Below are positions 47,478 to 59,910 of a DNA stretch of 64,000 bases, piece after piece (position 1 is the first letter of the stretch; each line of letters opens with the position of its first letter). The position numbers and the translations under genes are program-made. This DNA comes from Bacteroidia bacterium (GTDB taxonomy: Bacteria; Bacteroidota; Bacteroidia; B-17B0; Aurantibacillaceae): the NCBI GenBank assembly GCA_022841465.1, contig JALHRL010000012.1, positions 1 through 64,000 on the forward strand, written 5' to 3'. The notes below the pieces were generated by a model. It searched no databases and had not been told where the DNA came from. It saw only the letters and a program-made list of their open reading frames with translations.

Positions 47478-48059
47478 ATGGCAACTATTAATTATTATTC
47501 TCATCCATCGGCAATTATAGATGAGGGATGCGAAATTGGTGAGGGAACAAAAATTTGGCATTTTTCACACATAATGCCTAATTGTAAACTTGGTAAAAAC
47601 TGTAACATCGGTCAAAATGTTGTAATTTCCCCGGAAGTGGTTTTGGGCAACAATGTTAAGGTGCAAAATAATGTTTCTATTTATACCGGCGTAACTTGCG
47701 ATGACGATGTTTTTTTGGGCCCAAGTATGGTTTTCACCAATGTTACAAATCCCAGAAGTGCTGTTAATAGAAGAGGCCAATATGCTAAAACTCATGTTGG
47801 AAAAGGGGCTTCAATTGGCGCCAATGCAACCATTGTATGTGGACACGATATTGGTGAATTTGCATTTATTGGTGCAGGAGCTGTTGTTACCAAAAATGTA
47901 CCTGCATTTGCCTTGTTAGTTGGCAACCCCGCTAAACAAATTGGCTGGATGAGTGAATTTGGACATAAATTAAGTTTTGATGCAAACGGAATTGCAGAAT
48001 GTGAAGAAAGTAAACAAAAATATAAATTAGAAAACAACCTTGTAAAACGTATAGCATAA
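47478..48059 (+). CDS. sugar N-acetyltransferase, WbpD-like
   Basis: A 193-residue left-handed beta-helix acetyltransferase. It starts MATINYYSHPSAIIDEGCEI and runs through hexapeptide repeats (IGEGTKIWHFSHIM, LGKNCNIGQNVVIS, IGANATIVCG, IGAGAVVTKNV). The start closely follows Pseudomonas WbpD, which acetylates UDP-2-acetamido-3-amino-2,3-dideoxy-glucuronate using acetyl-CoA. It is first in the operon; the stop overlaps the next start by 1 bp (TAATG). The exact substrate is inferred from family and neighbours. Confidence 0.85.
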   Translation: MATINYYSHPSAIIDEGCEIGEGTKIWHFSHIMPNCKLGKNCNIGQNVVISPEVVLGNNVKVQNNVSIYTGVTCDDDVFLGPSMVFTNVTNPRSAVNRRGQYAKTHVGKGASIGANATIVCGHDIGEFAFIGAGAVVTKNVPAFALLVGNPAKQIGWMSEFGHKLSFDANGIAECEESKQKYKLENNLVKRIA

Positions 48060-49087
48060 TGACAAAAATAAAATTTGCTGTAATTGGACAGGGACATATT
48101 GGAAAGCGTCACGCAGAAATGATTAGGCGAAATGACAATTGCGAGTTAATTGCCGTTTGCGATATTCTTTCTAAAAAAGAACTTGGAATTGAAAATTTAA
48201 AAGAAAACTTTTACAACAATGTAGAGGAAATGCTTAAAGCACACCCCGAAGTTGATGTTGTAAATATATGCTCGCCAAATGGTTTACATGCAATTCATTC
48301 TATAAAATCGTTGGAAGCTCAAAAGCATGTAGTGGTTGAAAAACCCATGGCGCTTTCTAAAACAGATTGCGAAAAAATTATTTATACGGCATTGGCGCAA
48401 CATAAAAATGTGTTTTGTGTAATGCAAAACAGATACTCTCCCCCAAGCGTTTGGTTAAAAGAAGTAATGCAAAATAAAATAATTGGGGATGTTTACATGG
48501 TACAATTAAACTGTTACTGGAATCGTGATGAAAGATATTATAAGCCGGGTAATTGGAAAGGAACGCAGGATTTAGACGGAGGTACCTTGTTTACTCAATT
48601 TAGCCATTGGATAGATATTATGTATTGGTTGTTTGGAGACATCACCAATATTCAGGCAAAATTTGCAGATTTTAATCATCAAAAAACAACTGATTTTGAA
48701 GACAGTGGCCTGGTAAGTTTTGATTTTATTAATGGTGGAATGGGTTGTATTAACTACTCTACCGCTGTTTGGGATAAAAATCTAGAATCATCTTTAACCA
48801 TTGTTGGCAGCAAAGGAAGCGTAAAGGTTGGCGGACAATACATGGATCAAATAGAAGTTTGTAATATTAAAGATTATAAAATACCTGAATTGGATGCAAC
48901 TAACCCTGCAAATGATTATGGGGCATACAAAGGTTCTGCCAACAATCACAGCAATGTTATTGAAAATGTGGTAGACACTTTAACCGGAAAAAATAAAATT
49001 TCTACCAACGCCTTAGAAGGTTTAAAAGTAGTAGATATTATAGAACGAATTTATGCATTGCGTCCTAAAAAAGTTATAAAAAAATAA
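48059..49087 (+). CDS. Gfo/Idh/MocA oxidoreductase, WbpB-like
   Basis: A 342-residue NAD-dependent sugar oxidoreductase. The Rossmann motif is VIGQGHIGKRHAEMI at the start, then VEKPMALSKTDC with the catalytic Lys. The segment YWNRDERYYKPGNWKGTQDLDGGTLFTQFSHWID is highly typical of WbpB, which oxidises UDP-GlcNAcA at C3. It is coupled to the acetyltransferase and 12 bp ahead of the dehydrogenase. The aminotransferase WbpE (PorR) that should act between the two is not in the window. Confidence 0.86.
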   Translation: MTKIKFAVIGQGHIGKRHAEMIRRNDNCELIAVCDILSKKELGIENLKENFYNNVEEMLKAHPEVDVVNICSPNGLHAIHSIKSLEAQKHVVVEKPMALSKTDCEKIIYTALAQHKNVFCVMQNRYSPPSVWLKEVMQNKIIGDVYMVQLNCYWNRDERYYKPGNWKGTQDLDGGTLFTQFSHWIDIMYWLFGDITNIQAKFADFNHQKTTDFEDSGLVSFDFINGGMGCINYSTAVWDKNLESSLTIVGSKGSVKVGGQYMDQIEVCNIKDYKIPELDATNPANDYGAYKGSANNHSNVIENVVDTLTGKNKISTNALEGLKVVDIIERIYALRPKKVIKK

Positions 49088-49099
49088 AATTGTACTGTT

Positions 49100-50389
49100 A
49101 TGATGTACCAAAAAATAATAAATAAAGAAGCAAAGGTTGCATTAATTGGCCTTGGGTATGTTGGATTACCAATTGCTTTGGCATTTGCAAAAAAAGTAAA
49201 AGTAATTGGCTTTGATATAAACGAAGACAGGGTTAAATTAATGAAAAAAGGAATTGACCCAAGTAACGAATTACCAGCAAGTGAATTTAAAAAATCGGAT
49301 ATTGAATTTACAAGTAAGTTAGAAGATTTAAAAAAAGCTAATTTTTATATTGTTGCAGTTCCTACACCAATTGACGAACATAACTTACCGGATTTAAAAC
49401 CCCTAATTGCAGCGTCTACTACCGTTGGTAAGGTTTTAAAAAAAGGAGATTATGTAGTTTATGAGTCTACCGTTTATCCGGGCTGTACAGAAGAAGATTG
49501 CATTCCTGTTCTGGAAAAAATGAGCGGCTTAAAATTTAAAAAAGATTTTAAAGTTGGTTATTCACCTGAACGCATTAACCCCGGCGACAAAGAACACACC
49601 ATTACAAAAATTTTAAAAGTTGTTAGCGGATGCGATAACGAAAGCTTAGAAAACATAAGTAAAGTTTACGAAATAATTGTGGAACCGGGAACACACAAAG
49701 CCTCAAGTATAAAGGTGGCCGAAGCAGCTAAAATTATTGAAAATACGCAACGAGATGTTAATATTGCGCTAATGAATGAATTGTCTATCATCTTCAATAA
49801 AATGGGCATTAATACATTTGATGTGTTAGAAGCCGCCGGAACAAAATGGAATTTCTTAAAGTTTTTCCCTGGCTTGGTTGGCGGACATTGTATTGGTGTT
49901 GATCCTTATTATTTAACCCACAAGGCCGAAAGTTTAGGATATCATGCACGTGTTATAAACAGCGGCCGTTATGTGAACGACAGCATGGGTTTTTACGTTG
50001 CAAAAAATTGCGTTAAAAAAATTATTGCAGCCGGTAAAAACATCTCCAAATCTAAAGTATTGATAATGGGTGCAACTTTTAAGGAAGATGTGAGTGATAT
50101 TAGAAACAGTAAAGTTTCTGATATTGTTAAAGAATTAAAATCTTTTGGAGTAAAAGTAGAGGTAGTTGACCCCCATGCTGATAGTAGCGAGCTTAAACAT
50201 GAATATGGTTTTGGCTTAAACAAACAAGGAAAAAACTACGATGGTGTTATTGTTGCCGTTAATCACAAAGAATATAAAAACCTGGATGAAAAATTCTTTA
50301 AATCTGTATTATCAAAAAATGGAGTTTTTGTTGATGTAAAAGGAATTTACAAGGGGAGAATAAAAAATTTGACTTACTGGAGTCTTTAA
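49100..50389 (+). CDS. UDP-N-acetylhexosamine 6-dehydrogenase (WbpA/TviB/WbpO class)
   Basis: A 429-residue nucleotide-sugar dehydrogenase that oxidises C6 of a UDP-HexNAc to the uronic acid. NAD site: VALIGLGYVGLPIALAFA. Active Cys264 lies in VGGHCIGVDPYYLTHKAE. The region EAAGTKWNFLKFFPG favours the TviB/WbpO type over plain UDP-glucose dehydrogenase. With the two genes before it, it should start the route from UDP-GlcNAc toward a 2,3-diacetamido-uronic acid. A strong terminator begins 10 bp after the stop. Confidence 0.88.
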   Translation: MMYQKIINKEAKVALIGLGYVGLPIALAFAKKVKVIGFDINEDRVKLMKKGIDPSNELPASEFKKSDIEFTSKLEDLKKANFYIVAVPTPIDEHNLPDLKPLIAASTTVGKVLKKGDYVVYESTVYPGCTEEDCIPVLEKMSGLKFKKDFKVGYSPERINPGDKEHTITKILKVVSGCDNESLENISKVYEIIVEPGTHKASSIKVAEAAKIIENTQRDVNIALMNELSIIFNKMGINTFDVLEAAGTKWNFLKFFPGLVGGHCIGVDPYYLTHKAESLGYHARVINSGRYVNDSMGFYVAKNCVKKIIAAGKNISKSKVLIMGATFKEDVSDIRNSKVSDIVKELKSFGVKVEVVDPHADSSELKHEYGFGLNKQGKNYDGVIVAVNHKEYKNLDEKFFKSVLSKNGVFVDVKGIYKGRIKNLTYWSL

Positions 50390-50398
50390 TACTAAAAG

Positions 50399-50429
50399 AA
50401 AAGGTGATTAATTTTTAATCACCTTTTTT
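50399..50429. terminator. bidirectional terminator shared by the sugar operon and a T9SS cargo gene
   Basis: AAAAGGTGATTA (50399-50410) pairs with TAATCACCTTTT (50416-50427) around ATTTT. The stop codon of the minus-strand gene (50410-50408) lies in the left arm. Confidence 0.85.
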
Positions 50430-52123
50430 ATTGCAAAACCTTTTTCAGTTTCAATTTTTAAGAAGTAAATACCACTTTCAATTTCTCCTAATTCTATTTC
50501 TATATTTTTTGAACCAACCAATTTAGAGGATAATGTTCTACCTAATTGATCAGTAATAACAATACTTCTTACTAATTCATTGCAACCAATTGTTAGTTTT
50601 GAATTAAAAGGGTTTGGGTAAATACTAACGCTGATATGTTCAAATTCATTTTCTTTAATTGATACTGCAACTGGTATTATAAAATTAGTGCACAATTCAT
50701 TATCTAAAAAAACATTATCGTTTTCACCATTGGGTACAGTAGTAAACAAACAATAATTTGCCAAAACGGTAGAAGATGGGTATATGCTATTAAGAAACAT
50801 TTTATGAATAAATCCGGTCATTACATAAACAGTATCGTTCATTGCCAGTGAAGAAATGTTGTAATCCTGTTGATAGAAATACGCGCCACATGCCACGTCA
50901 GGACCGATATATGCGTTTAATTTAAAAGTAGTTAATGGTAAATTCGACTTATTTTTTACACCAACCTTTGCACGCATGTAAGAAGTATATGTTGCCATTG
51001 GAGGATACCCTGGGGCTATCAAATAGGCATAAGCTGAATCTAATTCAACGGAAATAATTTCAATATCATTACTAAACATATTTCCGGAATTCTTTGGAAA
51101 TACATTTAATGTCACAGACATATGTTCGCCTGGCCAACTCAAGCTTGTTTTAGAAACACAGGATGATAAAACCCCAATTAAAGATTGATTCTTTACCAAA
51201 TTAATTTGAGTAACCTTTTGAGTGCTGGTGGTAGAAGAATGTATGCTTTGAAATGAGGTATCAGTAATAAAATAAGTTTGTATAGTTGAAGAAGAGGATA
51301 TAGAATAAAGAGAGTCATTTTGCAAAACAAAATCAGCAACATTTATTCCTGCCTGATATAAACTGTTGCCTATTAAAGTAAAATTTGGAGAGAATTTGTA
51401 ATGCTTTCCATCTGAACCAATTGCCATTATTTGATTACCATTGTAGTAACTCATTTTTATATAAGTAGTTGCTGTTGGAATTGAATTTATAATATTTGCT
51501 GAGGCATTTAATTCATAAAAACCATTCGTATTGCTTTGCTTAGCGCTTAATATTAAGTTGTTATTTGGAAGTTGGAGAACAGATGAAATTTGACTTAATC
51601 CTGTATTTTTTCGAAGTAGTAGTTGGCCTGATTTACTATAACGACACATTACACTATCAGTAAAAACATAATAAGTTGAATCAGTATGTTGTAAAACGTT
51701 TTTGTAGTTATCCCATTGTGTATCTGTTGTGAAATTTGAAAATAAAATTACCCCATTAGTATCTATTTTACAGATATAGTTTTTCATATCGCTAAAAAAC
51801 ACATCGCAAAAAGATTCGCGTCCAACCAACATTAATTTATTATCTAATGTTTTAATAGAATTTGAAGTTATAATTCCTACATTTAAAAAAGACCTGGACT
51901 TAAGCAATCCGCTTTCTGAATATCGATATAAATATGGGGTTCCGTACCCACCTCCATTAACTAAATAGGTAGAAAAATAATAATTATTCGCTATGTACTG
52001 TAAACTAGGTGTTGCCTGCTCCGATTTATCATGAAACGCAACATTAAAAACCGATTGGCTACTTAAAGTATCTGCAAAACAATAGAATATAAATAAACCT
52101 AAATATTTTTTGAGAACCCTCAT
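50408..52123 (-). CDS. secreted protein with T9SS sorting domain, unknown function
   Basis: A 571-residue secreted protein. The signal peptide is MRVLKKYLGLFIFYCFADTL. The body is beta-rich with Ser, Asn and Tyr repeats and no domain I recognise; it may form a propeller (repeated YxFSDS- or LPNNNLILSAK-like strands). The C-terminal domain (about 490-571) has YPNPFNSKLTIG, DQLGRTLSS, ESGIYFLKI and KKVIKN, the type A sorting signature. It faces rfbB across only 31 bp. Confidence 0.8.
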   Translation of the reverse strand: MRVLKKYLGLFIFYCFADTLSSQSVFNVAFHDKSEQATPSLQYIANNYYFSTYLVNGGGYGTPYLYRYSESGLLKSRSFLNVGIITSNSIKTLDNKLMLVGRESFCDVFFSDMKNYICKIDTNGVILFSNFTTDTQWDNYKNVLQHTDSTYYVFTDSVMCRYSKSGQLLLRKNTGLSQISSVLQLPNNNLILSAKQSNTNGFYELNASANIINSIPTATTYIKMSYYNGNQIMAIGSDGKHYKFSPNFTLIGNSLYQAGINVADFVLQNDSLYSISSSSTIQTYFITDTSFQSIHSSTTSTQKVTQINLVKNQSLIGVLSSCVSKTSLSWPGEHMSVTLNVFPKNSGNMFSNDIEIISVELDSAYAYLIAPGYPPMATYTSYMRAKVGVKNKSNLPLTTFKLNAYIGPDVACGAYFYQQDYNISSLAMNDTVYVMTGFIHKMFLNSIYPSSTVLANYCLFTTVPNGENDNVFLDNELCTNFIIPVAVSIKENEFEHISVSIYPNPFNSKLTIGCNELVRSIVITDQLGRTLSSKLVGSKNIEIELGEIESGIYFLKIETEKGFAIKKVIKN

Positions 52124-52154
52124 TTTATTTTAAATTTACAAAAAATTACTTCAA

Positions 52155-53207
52155 ATGAAAATACTTATTACCGGAGGAGCTGGATTTATTGGCTCGCATG
52201 TTGTTAGATTGTTTGTAAACACTTACCCAAGCTATCAAATTTATAATTTAGATGCCCTAACCTACGCCGGTAATTTAGCCAACTTAACGGATATTGAGAA
52301 TAAACCCAACTATCAATTCATTAAAGGAGATATTGTTGATGCCAAATTTATTAATGAACTTTTTGAAAAAGAAAACTTTAATGCAATTATTCACTTAGCT
52401 GCTGAAAGTCATGTTGACCGCAGTATTACCAATCCATTAGAATTTGTAATGACAAATGTAATTGGTACCGTTAATTTATTAAATGCGGCAAAAAATTTAT
52501 ATAAAAAAGATAATAATTCCTTTAACCGCTTTTATCACGTTAGTACCGATGAGGTTTATGGTGCCTTAGGTGAAACAGGTATGTTTACCGAAACAACTGC
52601 CTACGACCCACACAGCCCCTACTCTGCTTCTAAAGCAAGTAGCGATCATTTTGTTCGTGCTTACCACGACACTTATGGTATGCCGATAGTTATTTCTAAT
52701 TGCAGTAATAATTATGGCCCAAATCATTTTCCTGAAAAGCTTATACCTCTTTGTATCAATAATATTTTAAATAATAAATCTCTACCTATTTACGGTAAAG
52801 GTGAAAATGTGAGGGATTGGCTTTATGTAGTTGATCACGCACGCGCTATTGATGTTGTTTTTCATAAGGCAAAAGATGGCAGCACTTACAATATTGGCGG
52901 ACATAACGAATGGACAAACATAGATGTAATTCGTTTATTATGCCGCATTATGGATAAAAAATTAAACCGCCCTGTAGGTACAAATGAAAAACTTATAACT
53001 TTTGTAACCGACCGTGCCGGACATGATTTACGTTACGCAATAGATGCCACCAAATTAAAAAATGATTTAGGATGGATACCTAGTGTTACTTTTGAAGAAG
53101 GCTTAGATAAAACAGTGGATTGGTATTTAACCAACAGTGATTGGTTAAATGAAGTAACATCAGGCCACTACATGAAATATTACGAAGAGCAATACGCTAA
53201 AAGGTAA
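52155..53207 (+). CDS. rfbB: dTDP-glucose 4,6-dehydratase
   Basis: A 350-residue short-chain dehydratase making dTDP-4-keto-6-deoxyglucose, the precursor of rhamnose and other deoxysugars. NAD motif: ITGGAGFIGSHVVRLF. Active-site: STDEVYG with the acid/base Asp-Glu pair, and Tyr/Lys in YSASKASSDHF. Also typical are HVDRSI and NNYGPNHFPEKLIPL. No rfbA, rfbC or rfbD lies beside it. It is divergent from the T9SS protein gene and continues the surface-sugar theme. Confidence 0.95.
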   Translation: MKILITGGAGFIGSHVVRLFVNTYPSYQIYNLDALTYAGNLANLTDIENKPNYQFIKGDIVDAKFINELFEKENFNAIIHLAAESHVDRSITNPLEFVMTNVIGTVNLLNAAKNLYKKDNNSFNRFYHVSTDEVYGALGETGMFTETTAYDPHSPYSASKASSDHFVRAYHDTYGMPIVISNCSNNYGPNHFPEKLIPLCINNILNNKSLPIYGKGENVRDWLYVVDHARAIDVVFHKAKDGSTYNIGGHNEWTNIDVIRLLCRIMDKKLNRPVGTNEKLITFVTDRAGHDLRYAIDATKLKNDLGWIPSVTFEEGLDKTVDWYLTNSDWLNEVTSGHYMKYYEEQYAKR

Positions 53208-53211
53208 TTTT

Positions 53212-53889
53212 TTACTTCTTTTTAATTAAATCAAATAAGAGTAATTCTATAAAATTCCGGTAACTTTTTTCGTCAATTGGGCTGCTAAAATCATTAAGGG
53301 AGGGTAAATTTTGCATAAAAAATTTTTGCGTATGAGCAAGCTCAACTATTGAACTGGCTAATGCTTTCGGATACTTAAAATTTGGATTATACTCGTGTAT
53401 TACCTTAGCAAACAAAGCGCACATATCTTTATAAGGCTTAAAAAGCTTTTCCTTATTATCAACTCCTACATGTCGCGTTAAATATGCTTTAGATCCTTCC
53501 CAGATGATTAATTCGTATAGTTTTTTCTCATCAATAATTGAATTACTACCTATTGAATTATAGGGTTGTGTAATTACATCAAGTATTTTCTTTAACTTCA
53601 GCTCCGGCTTGCTTAAATTATTTATTTCAAATAAGATGCGATACTCTAATTGACTCCAATACCAACCAAATAGATAAATCAACATTTTGTGTTTGTTCTC
53701 AAAATACCTGTATATGCTGGCTTCGGTGGTTCCAATTTCCGCTGCTAGCTTTCTAAATGTAAACAATTCAAAGCCCAACTTGTTAATTTCCTGTAAGCCT
53801 ATTTTAATGATTTTACGCCCCAACTCAGAATCCTGCGGATCTTTCAAAAAAAGTTTTTCATTCAGCTTTATTTTTAAATCTACCTCCAT
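53212..53889 (-). CDS. TetR/AcrR family regulator
   Basis: A 225-residue repressor type. The helix-turn-helix at about 38-72 reads TFRKLAAEIGTTEASIYRYFENKHKML, a clear TetR motif. The C-terminal ligand domain is not conserved enough to name an inducer. It is divergent from the export locus 54001-57999 with 111 bp between, which makes it the likely local regulator. It converges on rfbB with a 4-bp gap. Confidence 0.88.
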   Translation of the reverse strand: MEVDLKIKLNEKLFLKDPQDSELGRKIIKIGLQEINKLGFELFTFRKLAAEIGTTEASIYRYFENKHKMLIYLFGWYWSQLEYRILFEINNLSKPELKLKKILDVITQPYNSIGSNSIIDEKKLYELIIWEGSKAYLTRHVGVDNKEKLFKPYKDMCALFAKVIHEYNPNFKYPKALASSIVELAHTQKFFMQNLPSLNDFSSPIDEKSYRNFIELLLFDLIKKK

Positions 53890-53904: not shown

Positions 53905-53912
53905 CAAAAGTA
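53905..53912 (-). promoter_or_regulatory. -7 box of the tetR gene
   Basis: TACTTTTG on the minus strand fits TAnnTTTG, 15 bp before the ATG. No -33 was found at the normal distance. Confidence 0.5.
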
Positions 53913-53976: not shown

Positions 53977-53984
53977 TACTTTTG
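53977..53984 (+). promoter_or_regulatory. -7 box of the ABC-HlyD/TolC locus
   Basis: TACTTTTG fits TAnnTTTG and lies 16 bp before the ATG at 54001. It is the same 8-mer as the tetR -7 box, so the region has mirrored promoters. Confidence 0.55.
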
Positions 53985-54000
53985 CCAAATACTCAATTAA

Positions 54001-56313
54001 ATGACAATATTTAAAAAATTAATTACCCTGCTAGTCCCTGAAAAATCAAACATTTTTCAGATTTACTTTATGGCTATGCTGCAAGGTTTATTTTATATTT
54101 CTATTCCTTTATTTATCCAATCGGTTATTACATATACCATGGCCGGTTCTATCTCTGTATCGCTGGTTTTACTTTGTACATTTACTGTTATATCTGTAAT
54201 TTTTATTGGACTATTTCAACTTTGGCAGCTTCGCATTAATGAAACGATACAACAAAGTATACTACTTAATGTTGGTGTGAAATTTTCAGAAAAACTTTTT
54301 AAGTTAAATCCTTCACTTTACTTAAACGAATATTTATCCGTTAAAATAAATCATTTTTACGATACACTAACTCTTCAAAAAGGTTTGGCTAAAATTCTAT
54401 TAGATGTTTCCTTTAGTGTTGTATCCATTGTGTTTGGTTTATTGGTGCTTTCTGCCTACAATCCATTATTCTTAGTTTTTACATTACTAACGGTACTTAT
54501 TTTTTACTTTATTCTAAAAAATTACGGTTCTAAAGCACTCGATAAAAGTTTAAATGAATCGCGTAGCAAACACTTGTTTGTAAATTGGCTGCACAATTTA
54601 GTAATTGGTTTAAGGGATAAAGAAAAGAGCTACACCGATGAGTATATATACGAAACAACTTCCGTTAAGTTAAAATCTTACATTGATGATAAAAGCGATT
54701 ATTTTAAAATACTCGACTTACAATACCGAAGCATCCTCGTCTTTAAAATAATATTTATTACTGTTCTGCTTTTTTTAGGGGTTATTCTAGTACAAACAGG
54801 TTATTTAAATATTGGACAATTTGTTGCCTCAGAGATATTGGTGCTTTTAGTAATCAATGCAATTGAAAAACTAGTTATTAATCTTAAAACAGTTTTTGAT
54901 GTTTTAACAGCAACTGAAAAACTATTTCAAGTGTTTGAAATGGAAAATGAAATTGAAAAAGAAAACAGAATATCATTTAGCCAATTAAAAACGAATGTTT
55001 CCGAATTCATATACAAACACGCTTACTCAAAAAAATTTAAAAGTACCCTATACAGTGTTTTATTAATTGGATTAATTGTACTCTTTCTTCCATGGACCCA
55101 AACAGTAGAGAGCACTGGGCAAATAACAACGCTTGATCCAACAAAACGTCCGCAAACTGTTACAAGCAGGATTGCCGGAAGGGTTGAAAAATGGTATATT
55201 AATGAAGGTACATTAATTAAAAAGAATGATACTATTGCTTTCATTTCTGAAATTAAAGATGATTATATGGATCCTAATTTAATTGAGCGATCAGAATCGC
55301 AAATTAAGTCAAAGGAATCTTCTATTGAATCCTATGAGTTTAAAATTAATGCTATCAATTCTCAAATTGATGCTTTAAATAAATCTCTTCTTTTAAAAAC
55401 CGAACAATTAAAAAATAAAATACTACAATCAAAAATTAAAATTTATACAGATAGCATTGAGATGGTTGCTGCTGAAAATAATTACAAAGTAACAGAAGAA
55501 CAACTTAAACGATTTGAAGAACTCTTACAAAAGGGTGTTATTTCAAAAACCGATCTTGAAAATAGAAAAGTGAAATTGCAAGAAGGTATGGCAAAAAGAA
55601 TTTCTTCTCAAAACGATTACAGGAATTCACTCAATGAATTATTAAATGCAGAAATTGAATTAAACGCCACACGCCAGGATTTTAATGAAAAATTAATGAA
55701 AGCCGAGTCGGAAAAATTAAGTACTTTTTCTAACTTGTACGATGCAGAAGCGAACTTAACCAAAATGCAAAACCAACTTTCTAATTATTCTATTCGACAA
55801 GGTTATTATTTTGTGTTGGCACCGCAAGATGGATTTATATCTAAAACATTTATAAATGGAGTTGGAGAAATAATAAAAGAAGGTAGTGCAATTTGCAGTA
55901 TTGTTCCCTCGCAAGAAGAACAAGCTGTAGAATTGTTTATTAATCCTATTGATTTACCATTAGTTCATCCAGGACAAAAAGTTCAGCTTTTATTTGATGG
56001 TTGGCCAGCTTTTGTTTTCTCAGGATGGCCCGGGGTAAGTTTCGGAACCTACGAAGCCGAAGTTGTTGCTGTAGACAAAGCAATTTCTGAAAATGGGAAA
56101 TTTAAGGTGCTTGCAGTAAATAAAGAAAAGCCTTGGCCCGAAGCCATTCAAATTGGAGGAGGGGTTAAAGGATTTGCCTTGCTTAATAATGTTTTGGTGA
56201 TCTATGAATTGTGGCGAAAAATTAATGGGTTCCCGCCAGAGTTTTATACAATTGAAAATAAAGCTAAAGAAGAAAACAAAAAGAAAGAGGAAAATAAAAA
56301 TGAAAAAAACTAA
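54001..56313 (+). CDS. ABC exporter membrane domain fused to an HlyD adaptor, no ATPase domain
   Basis: A 770-residue protein with an unusual layout. Residues 1-310 look like the six-helix membrane domain of a type I ABC exporter (helices near 20-45, 50-75, 137-160, 164-182, 244-268, 272-297), ending with the linker VLTATEKLFQVFEMENEIEK. Where an ATPase domain should follow there is none: no Walker A, LSGGQ or Walker B motif occurs anywhere. Instead a seventh helix at about 349-367 leads into a membrane-fusion part: RIAGRVEKWYINEGTLIKK (half-lipoyl, about 390-408), long coiled coil (420-600), VLAPQDGFISKTFINGVGE, and a beta barrel. A Lys/Glu-rich tail overlaps the tolC start by 14 bp. Confidence 0.8.
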   Translation: MTIFKKLITLLVPEKSNIFQIYFMAMLQGLFYISIPLFIQSVITYTMAGSISVSLVLLCTFTVISVIFIGLFQLWQLRINETIQQSILLNVGVKFSEKLFKLNPSLYLNEYLSVKINHFYDTLTLQKGLAKILLDVSFSVVSIVFGLLVLSAYNPLFLVFTLLTVLIFYFILKNYGSKALDKSLNESRSKHLFVNWLHNLVIGLRDKEKSYTDEYIYETTSVKLKSYIDDKSDYFKILDLQYRSILVFKIIFITVLLFLGVILVQTGYLNIGQFVASEILVLLVINAIEKLVINLKTVFDVLTATEKLFQVFEMENEIEKENRISFSQLKTNVSEFIYKHAYSKKFKSTLYSVLLIGLIVLFLPWTQTVESTGQITTLDPTKRPQTVTSRIAGRVEKWYINEGTLIKKNDTIAFISEIKDDYMDPNLIERSESQIKSKESSIESYEFKINAINSQIDALNKSLLLKTEQLKNKILQSKIKIYTDSIEMVAAENNYKVTEEQLKRFEELLQKGVISKTDLENRKVKLQEGMAKRISSQNDYRNSLNELLNAEIELNATRQDFNEKLMKAESEKLSTFSNLYDAEANLTKMQNQLSNYSIRQGYYFVLAPQDGFISKTFINGVGEIIKEGSAICSIVPSQEEQAVELFINPIDLPLVHPGQKVQLLFDGWPAFVFSGWPGVSFGTYEAEVVAVDKAISENGKFKVLAVNKEKPWPEAIQIGGGVKGFALLNNVLVIYELWRKINGFPPEFYTIENKAKEENKKKEENKNEKN

Positions 56314-57691
56314 GCTTTTTATCTTTTTACTTCTTTGTTATTTTATCGGAATTTCGCAAACCGACGAATTTTCTTACGAAGGGCTGTTTCGCTCCATCGA
56401 GAAAAATCATCCTCTTTTTTCACAAGCACAAAATCAATCCGCAATCGGTAGACATCATATCCAAATGGCGCAAGGGGGATACGATCCGCAGGTTAGTGCA
56501 AGCTTCCATAATAAATATTTTGCCAATAAAAACTATTATTCCTATTTACAAGGTGAAGTAAAACAACAATTATTTGCATCGCAATACATAAAGGCCGGAT
56601 ATGAATATGGGCAGGGAACTTTTGCCAATCCGGAATCAATTACACCTTTTTATGGTTTATACTATGTAAGTTTTGAAACAAACTTACTGCAAGGTTTAAC
56701 TTTTGATAAACAAAGAGCCGATATATTAAAATCAAAACAATACAAGAACTTTTACTCAACAGAAAGGATTATTTTACTTAATAATCTATATTACGGGGCG
56801 GGTTTAAGTTATGCAGAATGGGCGTACGCGCATAAACTGATGAGTTTAAATACCTATTATACTCTACTTGCCAAACAGCGTTTAGGCGCAATGAATGATT
56901 TGGCTTCCATAGGAGAAAGAGCGGCAGCAGATACAGTTGAAGCTGCTATTTTTTATCAAACACGATTGCTCGATTACAATATTGCAAAAGTTGAGGCGCT
57001 TGAAAAAACAACTGAAGTTTCTAATTTTTACCTTAACAACCAACTTGTAGATTTTAATAATGGAATCAAACCTGTTGACACTCTTGATTATTTGTTTGAA
57101 AAAATTAAAGAGAAAACAATGATTTTTTTGAAGGCAGATTCTTTAAACAATCCCCTATTAGCTCAATATCAAATTAAGCAAAACATCTTTGAAATTGAGA
57201 AAAGATTTAGAAAAGAAATGATAAAACCTCAACTTTCTGTGAACTACAATCTAATATCTGAATCACAGGGAAATACTTTGGCTCAGTTATCCACTAATAA
57301 CTACAAATGGGGTGCTTCACTAAATTTTCCGTTGTTTTTTAGAAACTCATATAATAGTTTTAAAATTTCAGACTTAGAAGCAACCAATAATAAAATGGAA
57401 TTAAATTTTAAAAAATTAGAAATTGATTATAAAAACAATTTACTAAAACAGTCTATCTCTGTTTTATCTGAACAAATTGTAGCAGCGATAAAAAATGTAA
57501 ACTATAGTAAAATACTCTTAGATGCTGAAAAACTAAAATTCAGTATTGGAGAAAGTTCGCTTTTTTTACTTAATACCCGCGAAAACAAATTAATGGAATC
57601 TGAATTAAAATTAGCTGAATATAAACTTAAATACATTAAAACAGTATTAAAACTAATTCATTTGAACGGTAATTTAAATTATCAATTATGA
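56300..57691 (+). CDS. TolC family outer membrane efflux protein
   Basis: About 463 residues from the ATG at 56300, which gives the signal peptide MKKTKLFIFLLLCYFIGISQ; an open frame further upstream has no signal and is rejected. The protein is helical with TolC-like halves (SIEKNHPLFSQAQNQ near the start; long helices with NLYYGAGLSYAEWAYAHKL and EATNNKMELNFKKLE). It should form the outer-membrane channel for the upstream ABC-HlyD fusion. The start overlaps the fusion gene by 14 bp, and its stop overlaps the next gene (ATGA). Confidence 0.82.
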   Translation: MKKTKLFIFLLLCYFIGISQTDEFSYEGLFRSIEKNHPLFSQAQNQSAIGRHHIQMAQGGYDPQVSASFHNKYFANKNYYSYLQGEVKQQLFASQYIKAGYEYGQGTFANPESITPFYGLYYVSFETNLLQGLTFDKQRADILKSKQYKNFYSTERIILLNNLYYGAGLSYAEWAYAHKLMSLNTYYTLLAKQRLGAMNDLASIGERAAADTVEAAIFYQTRLLDYNIAKVEALEKTTEVSNFYLNNQLVDFNNGIKPVDTLDYLFEKIKEKTMIFLKADSLNNPLLAQYQIKQNIFEIEKRFRKEMIKPQLSVNYNLISESQGNTLAQLSTNNYKWGASLNFPLFFRNSYNSFKISDLEATNNKMELNFKKLEIDYKNNLLKQSISVLSEQIVAAIKNVNYSKILLDAEKLKFSIGESSLFLLNTRENKLMESELKLAEYKLKYIKTVLKLIHLNGNLNYQL

Positions 57692-57999
57692 TTGTACTGA
57701 ATATAATAACCAAGAATATTTCTGAAATTGAAACCATAATGAAAGAAATCATTACAAATCGCTTTGCGCAAAGTGTTCAGTTAGATCATGAAGTAAAACA
57801 CATTTTAATTAATGGAAAATTATCTGAATTAAAAACGCCAAAAATAAGCTTTATTACTAAAGCATTGTTGTATAATGAAATTGAAACTTTTTTGCACCAT
57901 AAATTTCCCACAACCGATTTTATGATTTATTCCATTCCAATAAGTCAAATGAACCTCGAACATTCCAATAAATTAAGAGAATATTTAAAACCTATTTAA
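57688..57999 (+). CDS. small CutA-like protein, unknown function
   Basis: A 103-residue protein, overlapping the tolC stop by 4 bp. Its length and strand-helix-strand pattern recall CutA1: a first strand MIVLNIIT, helix ISEIETIMKEIITNRFA, strands QLDHEVKHILINGKL and KISFITKALLY, helix EIETFLHHKF, and strand FMIYSIPIS, ending in a C-terminal helix. The conserved Trp and metal residues of classic CutA are not evident. I offer CutA-like as a structural guess. The tight coupling implies a job linked to the exporter. Confidence 0.55.
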   Translation: MIVLNIITKNISEIETIMKEIITNRFAQSVQLDHEVKHILINGKLSELKTPKISFITKALLYNEIETFLHHKFPTTDFMIYSIPISQMNLEHSNKLREYLKPI

Positions 58000-58074: not shown

Positions 58075-59910
58075 TTAATTACTATTTGTAGATTTAATCC
58101 AATCTCCAAATGAATGCACGCCATTTTTTTCAGACAAATGCTTTTCAATATCCTCAATTCTTCCCTTTGGAATAGAATTAATTAATTTTTTAGTGTAATC
58201 ACTGGTTGGATTATTGCAAATTTCATCGGCATCACCCATTTCTTCAATTTTCCCTTGATTCATTACCACCATGCGATCACTCATAAATTTCACAACACTT
58301 AAATCGTGACTAATAAAAATATAGGTGAACTTAAATTCCTTTTTTAAATCGTTTAATAAATTTAAAACTTGCGCCTGTACACTTACATCTAATGCACTTA
58401 CACTTTCATCACAAATAATAAATTTAGGGTTTAAAGATAAAGCTCTGGCAATACAAATACGCTGTCTTTGCCCTCCGCTAAACTCATGCGGGTAACGGTA
58501 AAAATGCTTGCTTTCCAATCCTACTTTTTCCAATAAATCATACACCATGCGTTTTCGAACATTGTTGTTGCCCCCAATTTTATGCACCTTCATGGGTTCC
58601 ATTAAGGCATCACCAACGGTTAAACGAGGGTTTAAAGAAGAATAAGGGTCTTGAAAAATTATTTGAATATCTTTTCTCAAAAATCGGAAATCGCTTTCCT
58701 TCATTCTTAAAATTTCTTGTCGCTTATAAAATATTTTACCTTCTTTTGCTTCGGTAAGTTTCATTATTGTTCTACCCAAGGTAGATTTTCCACATCCACT
58801 TTCTCCAACTAAGCCTAAAGTTTCGCCTTCGTAAATATCAAAACTAACATCGTCAACCGCTTTTGTCCAACTTAATACTTTGCCAAACATTGTCTTCTCT
58901 GCCGGAAACCAGGTTTTTACATTTTGAATTTCTAATATTTTATCACGTGCATAAAGCTCTTTGTGTTGCTTTATTCTTTCATCGACTGTAACTTCAACAC
59001 TGTGCAAGGTATCATCTACTGTTCTATCAATCTCTTCAATGTCCCCGTTTTCTTTACGAATCATAAAGTCGCTAACAACCGGTAATCTTTTTACACGCAA
59101 ATCCAATGGAGGTCTACAGGCAAGTAAACTTTTAGTGTAAGGATGCTGTGGGTTTTTAAAAATATCTAACACATGGCCTTGCTCCACAATTTTTCCTTTG
59201 TACATTACTACCACCTTATCTGCAAGTTCTGCAATAACACCTAAATCATGGGTAATAAACATAATTCCCATGTTGTGTTCTTTTTGCAGATTACGCATTA
59301 AATCTAAAATGGTTTTTTGTACGGTAACATCCAAAGCTGTAGTTGGCTCATCTGCAATAAGAATGTTAGGATTACAACTCATTGCCATTGCTATCATTAC
59401 CCTTTGTTTTTGCCCACCTGATATTTGATGTGGGTACCTATCCATCATTAATTCCGGAGTTGGTAATTGTACCTGATTAAACAAATCTAATACAATTTTA
59501 TATGCTTCTTTTTTAGAAATTTTCTTGTGTAAAATTAAAGCCTCTGCAACTTGGTCGCCGCATTTAATTACAGGATTTAAAGAGGTCATTGGTTCCTGAA
59601 AAATCATGGCAATTTCATTTCCGCGATAATGCCTCATTTCCGATTCAGGAGCCTTCACTAAATCAACTACTCTACCATCTTTGGTAGTATAAATAATTTC
59701 GCCGCCAGTAATTTTTCCGGGAGGGTTTGGTATTAAGCCCATAACAGACAAGGAAGTAACTGATTTACCCGAGCCACTTTCGCCAACTATACCAATTGTT
59801 TCGCCTTTGTGTAAAGTAAAACTAACGTCGTTAACAGCTTTAATAAACTCGTCGTCACTTTTAAACTCGGTTACTAAATTTTTAATCTCAAGTAAAACTT
59901 CCCTTTCCAT
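58075..59910 (-). CDS. peptide ABC transporter ATPase, DppD-DppF fusion
   Basis: A 611-residue protein with two ABC ATPase domains in one chain. First domain: Walker A GESGSGKS near 44, signature ISGGQKQRV, Walker B ILIADEPTTALD. Second domain: GESGCGKS near 367, FSGGQRQRI, and FIICDESVSALD. Each ends with the oligopeptide-binding C-terminal element (HPYTKSLLACRPPL; YTKKLINSIPKG). It drives uptake of di- or oligopeptides with Dpp/Opp permeases that are not encoded nearby. Fused forms are common in Bacteroidota. Confidence 0.93.
   Translation of the reverse strand: MEREVLLEIKNLVTEFKSDDEFIKAVNDVSFTLHKGETIGIVGESGSGKSVTSLSVMGLIPNPPGKITGGEIIYTTKDGRVVDLVKAPESEMRHYRGNEIAMIFQEPMTSLNPVIKCGDQVAEALILHKKISKKEAYKIVLDLFNQVQLPTPELMMDRYPHQISGGQKQRVMIAMAMSCNPNILIADEPTTALDVTVQKTILDLMRNLQKEHNMGIMFITHDLGVIAELADKVVVMYKGKIVEQGHVLDIFKNPQHPYTKSLLACRPPLDLRVKRLPVVSDFMIRKENGDIEEIDRTVDDTLHSVEVTVDERIKQHKELYARDKILEIQNVKTWFPAEKTMFGKVLSWTKAVDDVSFDIYEGETLGLVGESGCGKSTLGRTIMKLTEAKEGKIFYKRQEILRMKESDFRFLRKDIQIIFQDPYSSLNPRLTVGDALMEPMKVHKIGGNNNVRKRMVYDLLEKVGLESKHFYRYPHEFSGGQRQRICIARALSLNPKFIICDESVSALDVSVQAQVLNLLNDLKKEFKFTYIFISHDLSVVKFMSDRMVVMNQGKIEEMGDADEICNNPTSDYTKKLINSIPKGRIEDIEKHLSEKNGVHSFGDWIKSTNSN

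Follow-up and report, generated by a model that had tools for sequence, protein, structure and literature searches.

How does an exporter built on an ATP-binding cassette (ABC) membrane domain operate when it carries no ATPase? This question is raised by a gene in a 64,000-nucleotide stretch of a Bacteroidia bacterium genome (contig JALHRL010000012.1, positions 1 to 64,000), which we refer to as the window. At 54001..56313 on the plus strand, a single open frame of 770 residues joins a six-helix type IV ABC exporter transmembrane domain (TMD) to a HlyD-type adaptor, with no nucleotide-binding domain (NBD). An earlier note on this DNA had described such a fusion and suggested that it may borrow an ATPase, work passively or result from a recent deletion. 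We slightly favor a different reading, in which the protein would be part of a tripartite exporter whose ancestor, an ABC protein of type I secretion or peptide export, gave up ATP hydrolysis.

The proposed membrane domain and adaptor were both confirmed by NCBIfam models, profile searches, an AlphaFold model and fold matches. NCBIfam models of bacteriocin/HlyB-type exporters cover residues 3-345 (TIGR01193, 5.4e-8) and HlyD models cover the remainder (TIGR01843, 6.4e-23), all under their curated cut-offs. Pfam matched HlyD_3 at residues 605-695 (4e-8) and, under its cut-off, ABC_membrane (0.025). In a profile built from 21 fusions, the TMD matched ComA (2.1e-7), the HlyB-subfamily transporter 5l22 (1.1e-5), HlyB (1.5e-4) and PCAT1 (~1e-3), and the adaptor part matched EmrA (6.4e-9). 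The AlphaFold model used here was made from a 101-row alignment (mean predicted local distance difference test score, pLDDT, 81.8) and replaced an earlier 21-row model (pLDDT 63.8). Its predicted TMD (54001..54924, residues 1-308) contains helices at 3-47, 53-101, 110-153, 155-205, 213-266 and 271-308, and residues 2-312 match ABC proteins of the type IV six-helix fold with Z up to 22.4. A linker occupies the expected place of the NBD (54925..55029, residues 309-343); the pLDDT is <50 at 308-323, and a helix follows at 326-338. Beyond it lie a predicted adaptor membrane helix (55030..55083, residues 344-361) and a complete HlyD/EmrA-like adaptor (55090..56310), in which barrel strands flank a coiled-coil hairpin (427-594) and a C-terminal helix closes the chain. 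This part of the model matches EmrA (Foldseek 1.3e-14), MacA and HlyD. As the earlier note had held, the linker is short and no ATPase domain is present: ABC_tran is absent from the Pfam matches of the fusion up to E = 1, and a profile of the family's own NBDs found nothing over 10 bits in it. The locus has the HlyD-type adaptor and TolC of type I secretion and no ATP-hydrolyzing ABC subunit, and the fusion lacks the NBD with Walker A, signature and Walker B motifs that marks an ABC exporter.

A collapsed assembly at the fusion junction is very unlikely, because the same junction recurs in other genomes. Our search of 60 genomes, the window's own and 59 relatives, returned a match in 33, some of them weak. 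The earlier note had suggested looking for the same fusion beside tolC, and it is complete in 15 of the 37 genus genomes. Two more have a fusion cut by a contig edge (G023, G032), one has the adaptor part alone at a contig edge (G002), four have a two-gene form (G014, G027, G028, G036) and 15 were counted as having none of these, among them G033 with its weak match. When named genomes were scanned, the fusion was found among the best 80 of 522 confirmed relatives, in loci L063-L082 and L102 (L068 being edge-cut), ten of which we took to be the same assemblies as genus genomes already counted. Dropping identical and short rows left 26 distinct fused rows, 15 from the genus and 11 new. They form one clade with support 100 in a tree of TMD and adaptor, so the homologues are not all normal full ABC exporters, the situation in which the earlier note would have seen a single-strain deletion. 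All 26 have the adaptor and a TolC gene. The earlier note's picture of an inner-membrane part and an adaptor in one piece, served by an outer-membrane channel of their own, is supported. Four fused pairs, each compared over two domains, gave eight estimates of the ratio of nonsynonymous to synonymous substitution (dN/dS); dS was usable in two, with rough ratios of 0.03 and 0.04 at dS 1.8-2.4. Most of the genomes compared are fragmented assemblies, which favors an artefact, a single-strain deletion or a pseudogene. Against these stand the complete junction in 15/37 congeners and 11 further distinct records, the intact frames and the low dN/dS where it could be measured, and we consider their probability essentially nil; a recent deletion is ruled out on the same grounds.

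Elsewhere in the Bacteroidota, the same operon carries separate ABC and HlyD genes. Among 159 loci with a TMD, 155 were long enough and 145 were distinct, and the TMD and adaptor tree of these 145 rows comprises 71 with a Walker A motif, 31 with an NBD that lacks Walker A, the 26 fused rows, six with a TMD only and 11 outgroup rows. We read the NBD motifs in one alignment against five ABC-exporter-like NBDs from the window's own genome. Walker A is present in 71 of the 102 ingroup NBDs, the Walker B aspartate in 17, the catalytic glutamate in 18, the signature in 6, the Q-loop in 4 and the H-loop histidine in 2 (L051 and L053, the latter apparently an alignment-end effect). None of the 102 has a full catalytic set, scored either as Walker A with the aspartate and glutamate or as Walker A with the glutamate and histidine. 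The outgroup NBDs, with Walker A, aspartate and glutamate in 11 of 11 and histidine in 10, are presumably active. The fusion is one end of a phylum-wide series of NBD decay, whose living stages would range from an NBD with catalytic motifs through a dead NBD, an NBD without Walker A and no NBD to no NBD with adaptor fusion. Two candidate observations were set aside. Faster evolution of the NBD than of the TMD was dropped as a sign of decay, as the two outgroup pairs show it too (0.67 vs 0.85; 0.72 vs 0.84), and large frames that could have been TMD-NBD-HlyD fusions (1139, 1005, 1017 and 1021 aa) are separate genes in the open reading frame calls, so we claim no such protein.

The absence of the NBD requires two changes on the tree, one with fusion, in the window's clade, and one without it. 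The second concerns six TMD-only rows (L173, L174, L184, L192, L193 and L194), whose genes of 332-339 aa have separate HlyD and TolC genes alongside. These rows form a second NBD-less clade (support 100) that adjoins L172, one of the 102 rows with a degenerate NBD, or pseudo-NBD. Named relatives with a pseudo-NBD include Zobellia russellii (L136) and Fulvivirga sediminis (L134). The fused clade groups with another pseudo-NBD row, L051 (support 98 and 97), a grouping left unresolved by a small 32-row tree. A single clade uniting both NBD-less groups was rejected by the approximately unbiased (AU) test (p-AU 7.9e-50; 32 rows and the simpler LG+G4 model, with the grouping picked after the first tree was seen). 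Within 20 kb, an NBD gene lies near one of the six TMD-only loci. In one of the six, a 282-aa ABC ATPase is encoded about 1.3 kb after tolC (L229:15019-15867); it is a possible partner at that locus and is not conserved.

If an NBD encoded elsewhere docked on the TMD in trans, the intracellular loops that receive it should matter. In the window these are loop 1 (54268..54375, residues 90-125), where INHFYD replaces the MNRFFD of relatives and the motif is lost, and loop 2 (54568..54696, residues 190-232), whose sequence has diverged. We compared loop identity over pairs matched on adaptor identity of 0.50-0.70. Over the 253 pairs of the fused clade, identity is 0.27 for loop 1 and 0.22 for loop 2, compared to 0.58 and 0.50 in pseudo-NBD rows that keep Walker A (a sample of 400 from 1075 pairs), 0.50 and 0.45 in those without it (207 pairs), 0.62 and 0.52 in the outgroup (only 4 pairs) and 0.71 and 0.42 in the TMD-only clade (12 pairs). 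Unlike the loops, the membrane segments keep 0.44-0.74 identity across all groups. The loops measure 34-37 (median 37) and 37-41 (median 38-39) residues in the other groups. In the fused clade they span 30-37 (median 33) and 24-38 (median 31), and 23/26 rows are shortened. The clade also lost charge at 16 positions, eight in the docking loops and four in the N-terminal stretch 6-17; one of the 16, E199, is present in all five reference exporters. The NBD-docking loops that ABC exporters conserve are thus eroded in the fused clade, in parallel with the coupling-helix loss of SbmA, an ABC-fold transporter that runs on protons and has neither NBDs nor coupling helices, according to the available text of one study (PMC13316013).

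A borrowed ATPase, one of the options in the earlier note, is consequently a decidedly unlikely explanation for the fused clade, because erosion of the docking loops is confined to that clade and the search of the window's own genome found no stand-alone NBD close to the family. The note had suggested seeking an orphan exporter ATPase, and this genome does have many ABC ATPases (41 ABC_tran matches, some of them partial), a point in favor of borrowing. The NBD nearest the family is 31% identical and lies inside a 592-aa frame; short frames (216-325 aa) match weakly, at 22-29% identity and E of 5.7e-10 or worse. The idea also gains from separate TMD and NBD genes reported among YddA relatives, in the portion of the study available (PMC13316013), and from the retention of loop 1 in the TMD-only relatives, and it loses from the finding of an NBD gene near one of those six loci only. 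The docking-loop argument covers the window's fused clade only, because loop 1 of the TMD-only rows is not eroded.

What the membrane domain has kept bears on how it might work. E81, Q126-K127, K131, K249, E278 and E289-K290 are invariant in the alignments of the fused proteins, and E81, K131, K249, E278 and E289-K290 are near-invariant in pseudo-NBD rows. The fused clade acquired D/E239 (25/26), the sole acidic position it gained, and K/R243 (22/26), and TM6 evolves slowly (identity 0.74). In the reading we favor, the fusion would assemble into three TMD dimers and six adaptors, joined by a TolC trimer. This arrangement fits because a 1:1 fusion satisfies the HlyB-HlyD ratio, given in the available part of one report as three dimers plus six HlyD (PMC11026475). 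The TMD would alternate access, powered by the proton-motive force, as SbmA uses protons, or by the cargo gradient, with E81, K131, K249, E278 and E289-K290 as candidate coupling residues. The cargo would probably be a small molecule or peptide. The passive option of the earlier note becomes, in our terms, a gated conduit: the TMD would act as a valve without energy coupling, through which cargo follows its own gradient into the TolC duct. This agrees with the lack of an ATPase and with the placement of D/E239 and K/R243 at the inner end of TM5, not clearly within the membrane. The invariant membrane glutamates and lysines and the slow TM6 suggest more than a pore, without excluding one, and we judge the conduit unlikely.

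Several observations weigh against the reading we favor. In the outgroup, too, the membrane Glu/Lys residues are common, hence not specific to ATP-free operation; a glutamate particular to NBD loss was sought, and E278 (10/11 outgroup rows) and E289 (9/11) do not discriminate. In three fused rows (the window's own, L031 and L063) the loops are not shortened, at 37 and 38 residues, though those of the window are changed in sequence, and the TMD-only clade retains docking loop 1 (0.71), so that something cytosolic may still dock there. Nine of the 102 ingroup NBDs retain both Walker A and the catalytic glutamate. L051, beside the fused clade in two trees, retains Walker A, the aspartate and the histidine, and lacks the glutamate, signature and Q-loop. 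By the rule we used, the outgroup NBDs themselves score 0/11 for signature and Q-loop. ABC_tran reaches 46-71 bits, above the Pfam cut-off, in 7 of 10 ingroup proteins scanned; the other three, L052, L053 and L055, fall short of it at 13.5-18.2 bits. The NBD fold is therefore still recognizable in most ingroup proteins, and what has gone is the catalytic residues. Finally, the SbmA family itself (PF05992) was found in 0 of the 60 genomes, compared to 2 of 14 controls, E. coli included.

The genes around the fusion are arranged as the earlier note described. A gene for a TolC-family outer membrane channel (56300..57691, plus strand, 463 aa; PF02321, 8e-16) overlaps the fusion gene by 14 nt at its start and is in turn overlapped by 4 nt by a gene for a small CutA1-family protein (57688..57999, plus strand, 103 aa), while a TetR-family regulator gene (53212..53889, minus strand; PF00440, 2.2e-8) is divergent. 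The CutA1 assignment is profile-based: the window copy scores 0.0044 against PF03091, under the family cut-off, a homologue scores 4.4e-7, and a profile of 21 homologues matches the solved CutA1 structure 1nza at 8.4e-11. A CutA-like gene lies near 16/26 fused, 8/31 Walker-A-less, 3/71 Walker-A-bearing, 0/6 TMD-only and 0/11 outgroup rows, counts for which the flanks were short in 2/31 Walker-A-less, 30/71 Walker-A-bearing and 11/11 outgroup rows; for the TMD-only loci the count stays 0/6 when 20 kb is examined. TetR lies near 24 of the 26 fused rows, in none of them on the operon strand, and is mostly co-directional in pseudo-NBD relatives (49/71 with Walker A, 28/31 without). Since it is divergent in one group and co-directional in the other, the operon has undergone rearrangement in addition to fusion. 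The divergent TetR may sense the cargo level, and the CutA1-like product could be a regulator in the cytosol. No conserved cargo gene beside the operon was recognized in the neighbor clusters, the two largest of which look like antisense frames of core genes.

Wider flanks revealed a second recurrent set of genes. Across 96 wide-flank loci, counting related loci separately, an SbtA-type bicarbonate transporter lies near 15, a LysR gene near 22, DUF6671 near 15, a small protein near 14 and a CutA-like gene near 27. Two SbtA proteins scanned match PF05982 at 6.7e-115 and 5.8e-113, and the closely related loci L040 and L082 share the gene order CutA-like, SbtA, fusion, tolC. A module resembling bicarbonate uptake (SbtA, DUF6671, proteins of 80-100 aa and LysR) occupies L040:4804-9840 and L237:1-2052, the latter at the start of another contig (C13) of the window's own genome; two of its small proteins matched no Pfam family above its cut-off. 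Of the 37 genus genomes, 18 have both pump and SbtA, 4 the pump only, 2 SbtA only and 13 neither (Fisher 5e-5, kinship ignored). In a draw of 395 genomes from the phylum (SbtA E up to 1e-110; pump adaptor E up to 1e-30, outgroup pumps included), 24 of the 26 with a close SbtA are among the 96 pump genomes (Fisher 3e-14, kinship ignored), and 72 of those 96 lack it. By their coordinates, SbtA and pump lie within 20 kb on one contig in 8 of the 22 relatives that have both (G007, G009, G013, G026, G031, G045, G046, G050). This co-occurrence is an association, not a function. It is the setting for another explanation, that the ABC fold was retained as a sensor or scaffold, a membrane regulator that the CutA-like protein may link to bicarbonate uptake. 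SUR1 is an ABC fold that serves as a membrane regulator, and it is the top structural match of the TMD (Z 22.4), which informs on fold only; the recurrence of the SbtA/LysR/DUF6671 module and CutA-like genes nearby points the same way. The adaptor and TolC found with 26/26 fused rows imply a trans-envelope conduit instead, and we regard a sensor or scaffold as highly doubtful.

Beyond the operon, the earlier note was mistaken that no neighbor supplies a Walker motif. A convergent gene at 58075-59910 (611 aa), beside the fusion operon by position only, has two Walker A motifs, and its product looks like an Opp/Dpp-type double ATPase when its sequence alone is read. No gene with two Walker A motifs occurs in the other loci compared, so it is not a conserved partner and we rejected it as the source of an ATPase. 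On the other side, translations from 48059-53207 read as a secreted protein whose C-terminal domain resembles a sorting domain and as sugar-nucleotide genes (Gfo/Idh-like, UDP-sugar dehydrogenase-like and dTDP-glucose dehydratase-like). In the gap that separates the TetR gene from the fusion gene, TACTTTTG boxes lie at 53905-53912 (minus) and 53977-53984 (plus); we take TACTTTTG to resemble the Bacteroidota -7-like promoter motif. TANNTTTG is not enriched in L001 (5 found vs 10.1 expected), and inverted repeats in the same gap are AT-rich and unconvincing.

Is the fusion a known system under another name? SbmA/BacA (SLiPT) is likewise an NBD-less TMD of the ABC-exporter fold, and the accessible text on it reports descent from a full ABC transporter and a TMD that carries a glutamate ladder (PMC13316013). 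According to the same text, SbmA is a peptide importer with an additional TM0 (PMC13316013), whereas the fusion TMD is joined to an export adaptor. The fusion's origin is, on present homology, separate from that of SbmA, because its nearest solved relatives are ComA, the HlyB-subfamily transporter, HlyB and PCAT1, and PF05992 is neither among its Pfam matches nor present in any of the 60 genomes; that SbmA is not among the best 50 matches listed per structure search carries no evidence on fold. HlyB-HlyD-TolC, ComA and PCAT1 share with it the TMD and adaptor homology, the adaptor and TolC genes alongside and a possible 1:1 stoichiometry. They differ in that the window protein has no ATPase, unites TMD and adaptor in one polypeptide and has no domain ahead of the TMD. 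Among its relatives, L052, L053, L055, L059, L060 and L061 carry ~150 extra N-terminal residues, presumably where HlyB/ComA have their C39-like domain. EmrAB-TolC is likewise tripartite and has an inner component other than an ATPase, and its adaptor is near that of the fusion (profile 6.4e-9; Foldseek 1.3e-14); its inner part is of the major facilitator superfamily (MFS) type, by the title of its structure entry, in contrast to an ABC-fold TMD joined to the adaptor. We found no description of the fusion family in the literature, judged by titles and abstract beginnings and with preprints and most subscription journals outside the scope, and the available text of a review of tripartite pumps mentions neither 'Bacteroidetes' nor 'lacking NBD' (PMC8277102).

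Taken together, these comparisons may describe a separate conversion of a primary ABC exporter to a secondary-active or passive transporter within a tripartite pump, with its stages still alive in the Bacteroidota, a view we hold tentatively and at slightly less than even confidence. The path of SbmA was inferred from a tree of distant forms, in the portion of the study available (PMC13316013); the fusion family presents several stages of NBD loss side by side and two complete losses on one tree. Our results also suggest that genes of this family that resemble ordinary Bacteroidota ABC-HlyD-TolC pumps do not hydrolyze ATP. If the conversion is real, an NBD-less ABC-fold class would stand beside resistance-nodulation-division (RND), MFS and ABC proteins as the inner part of tripartite pumps. 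Should ATP-free transport be shown, this variant of tripartite exporter would become a further class of energization.

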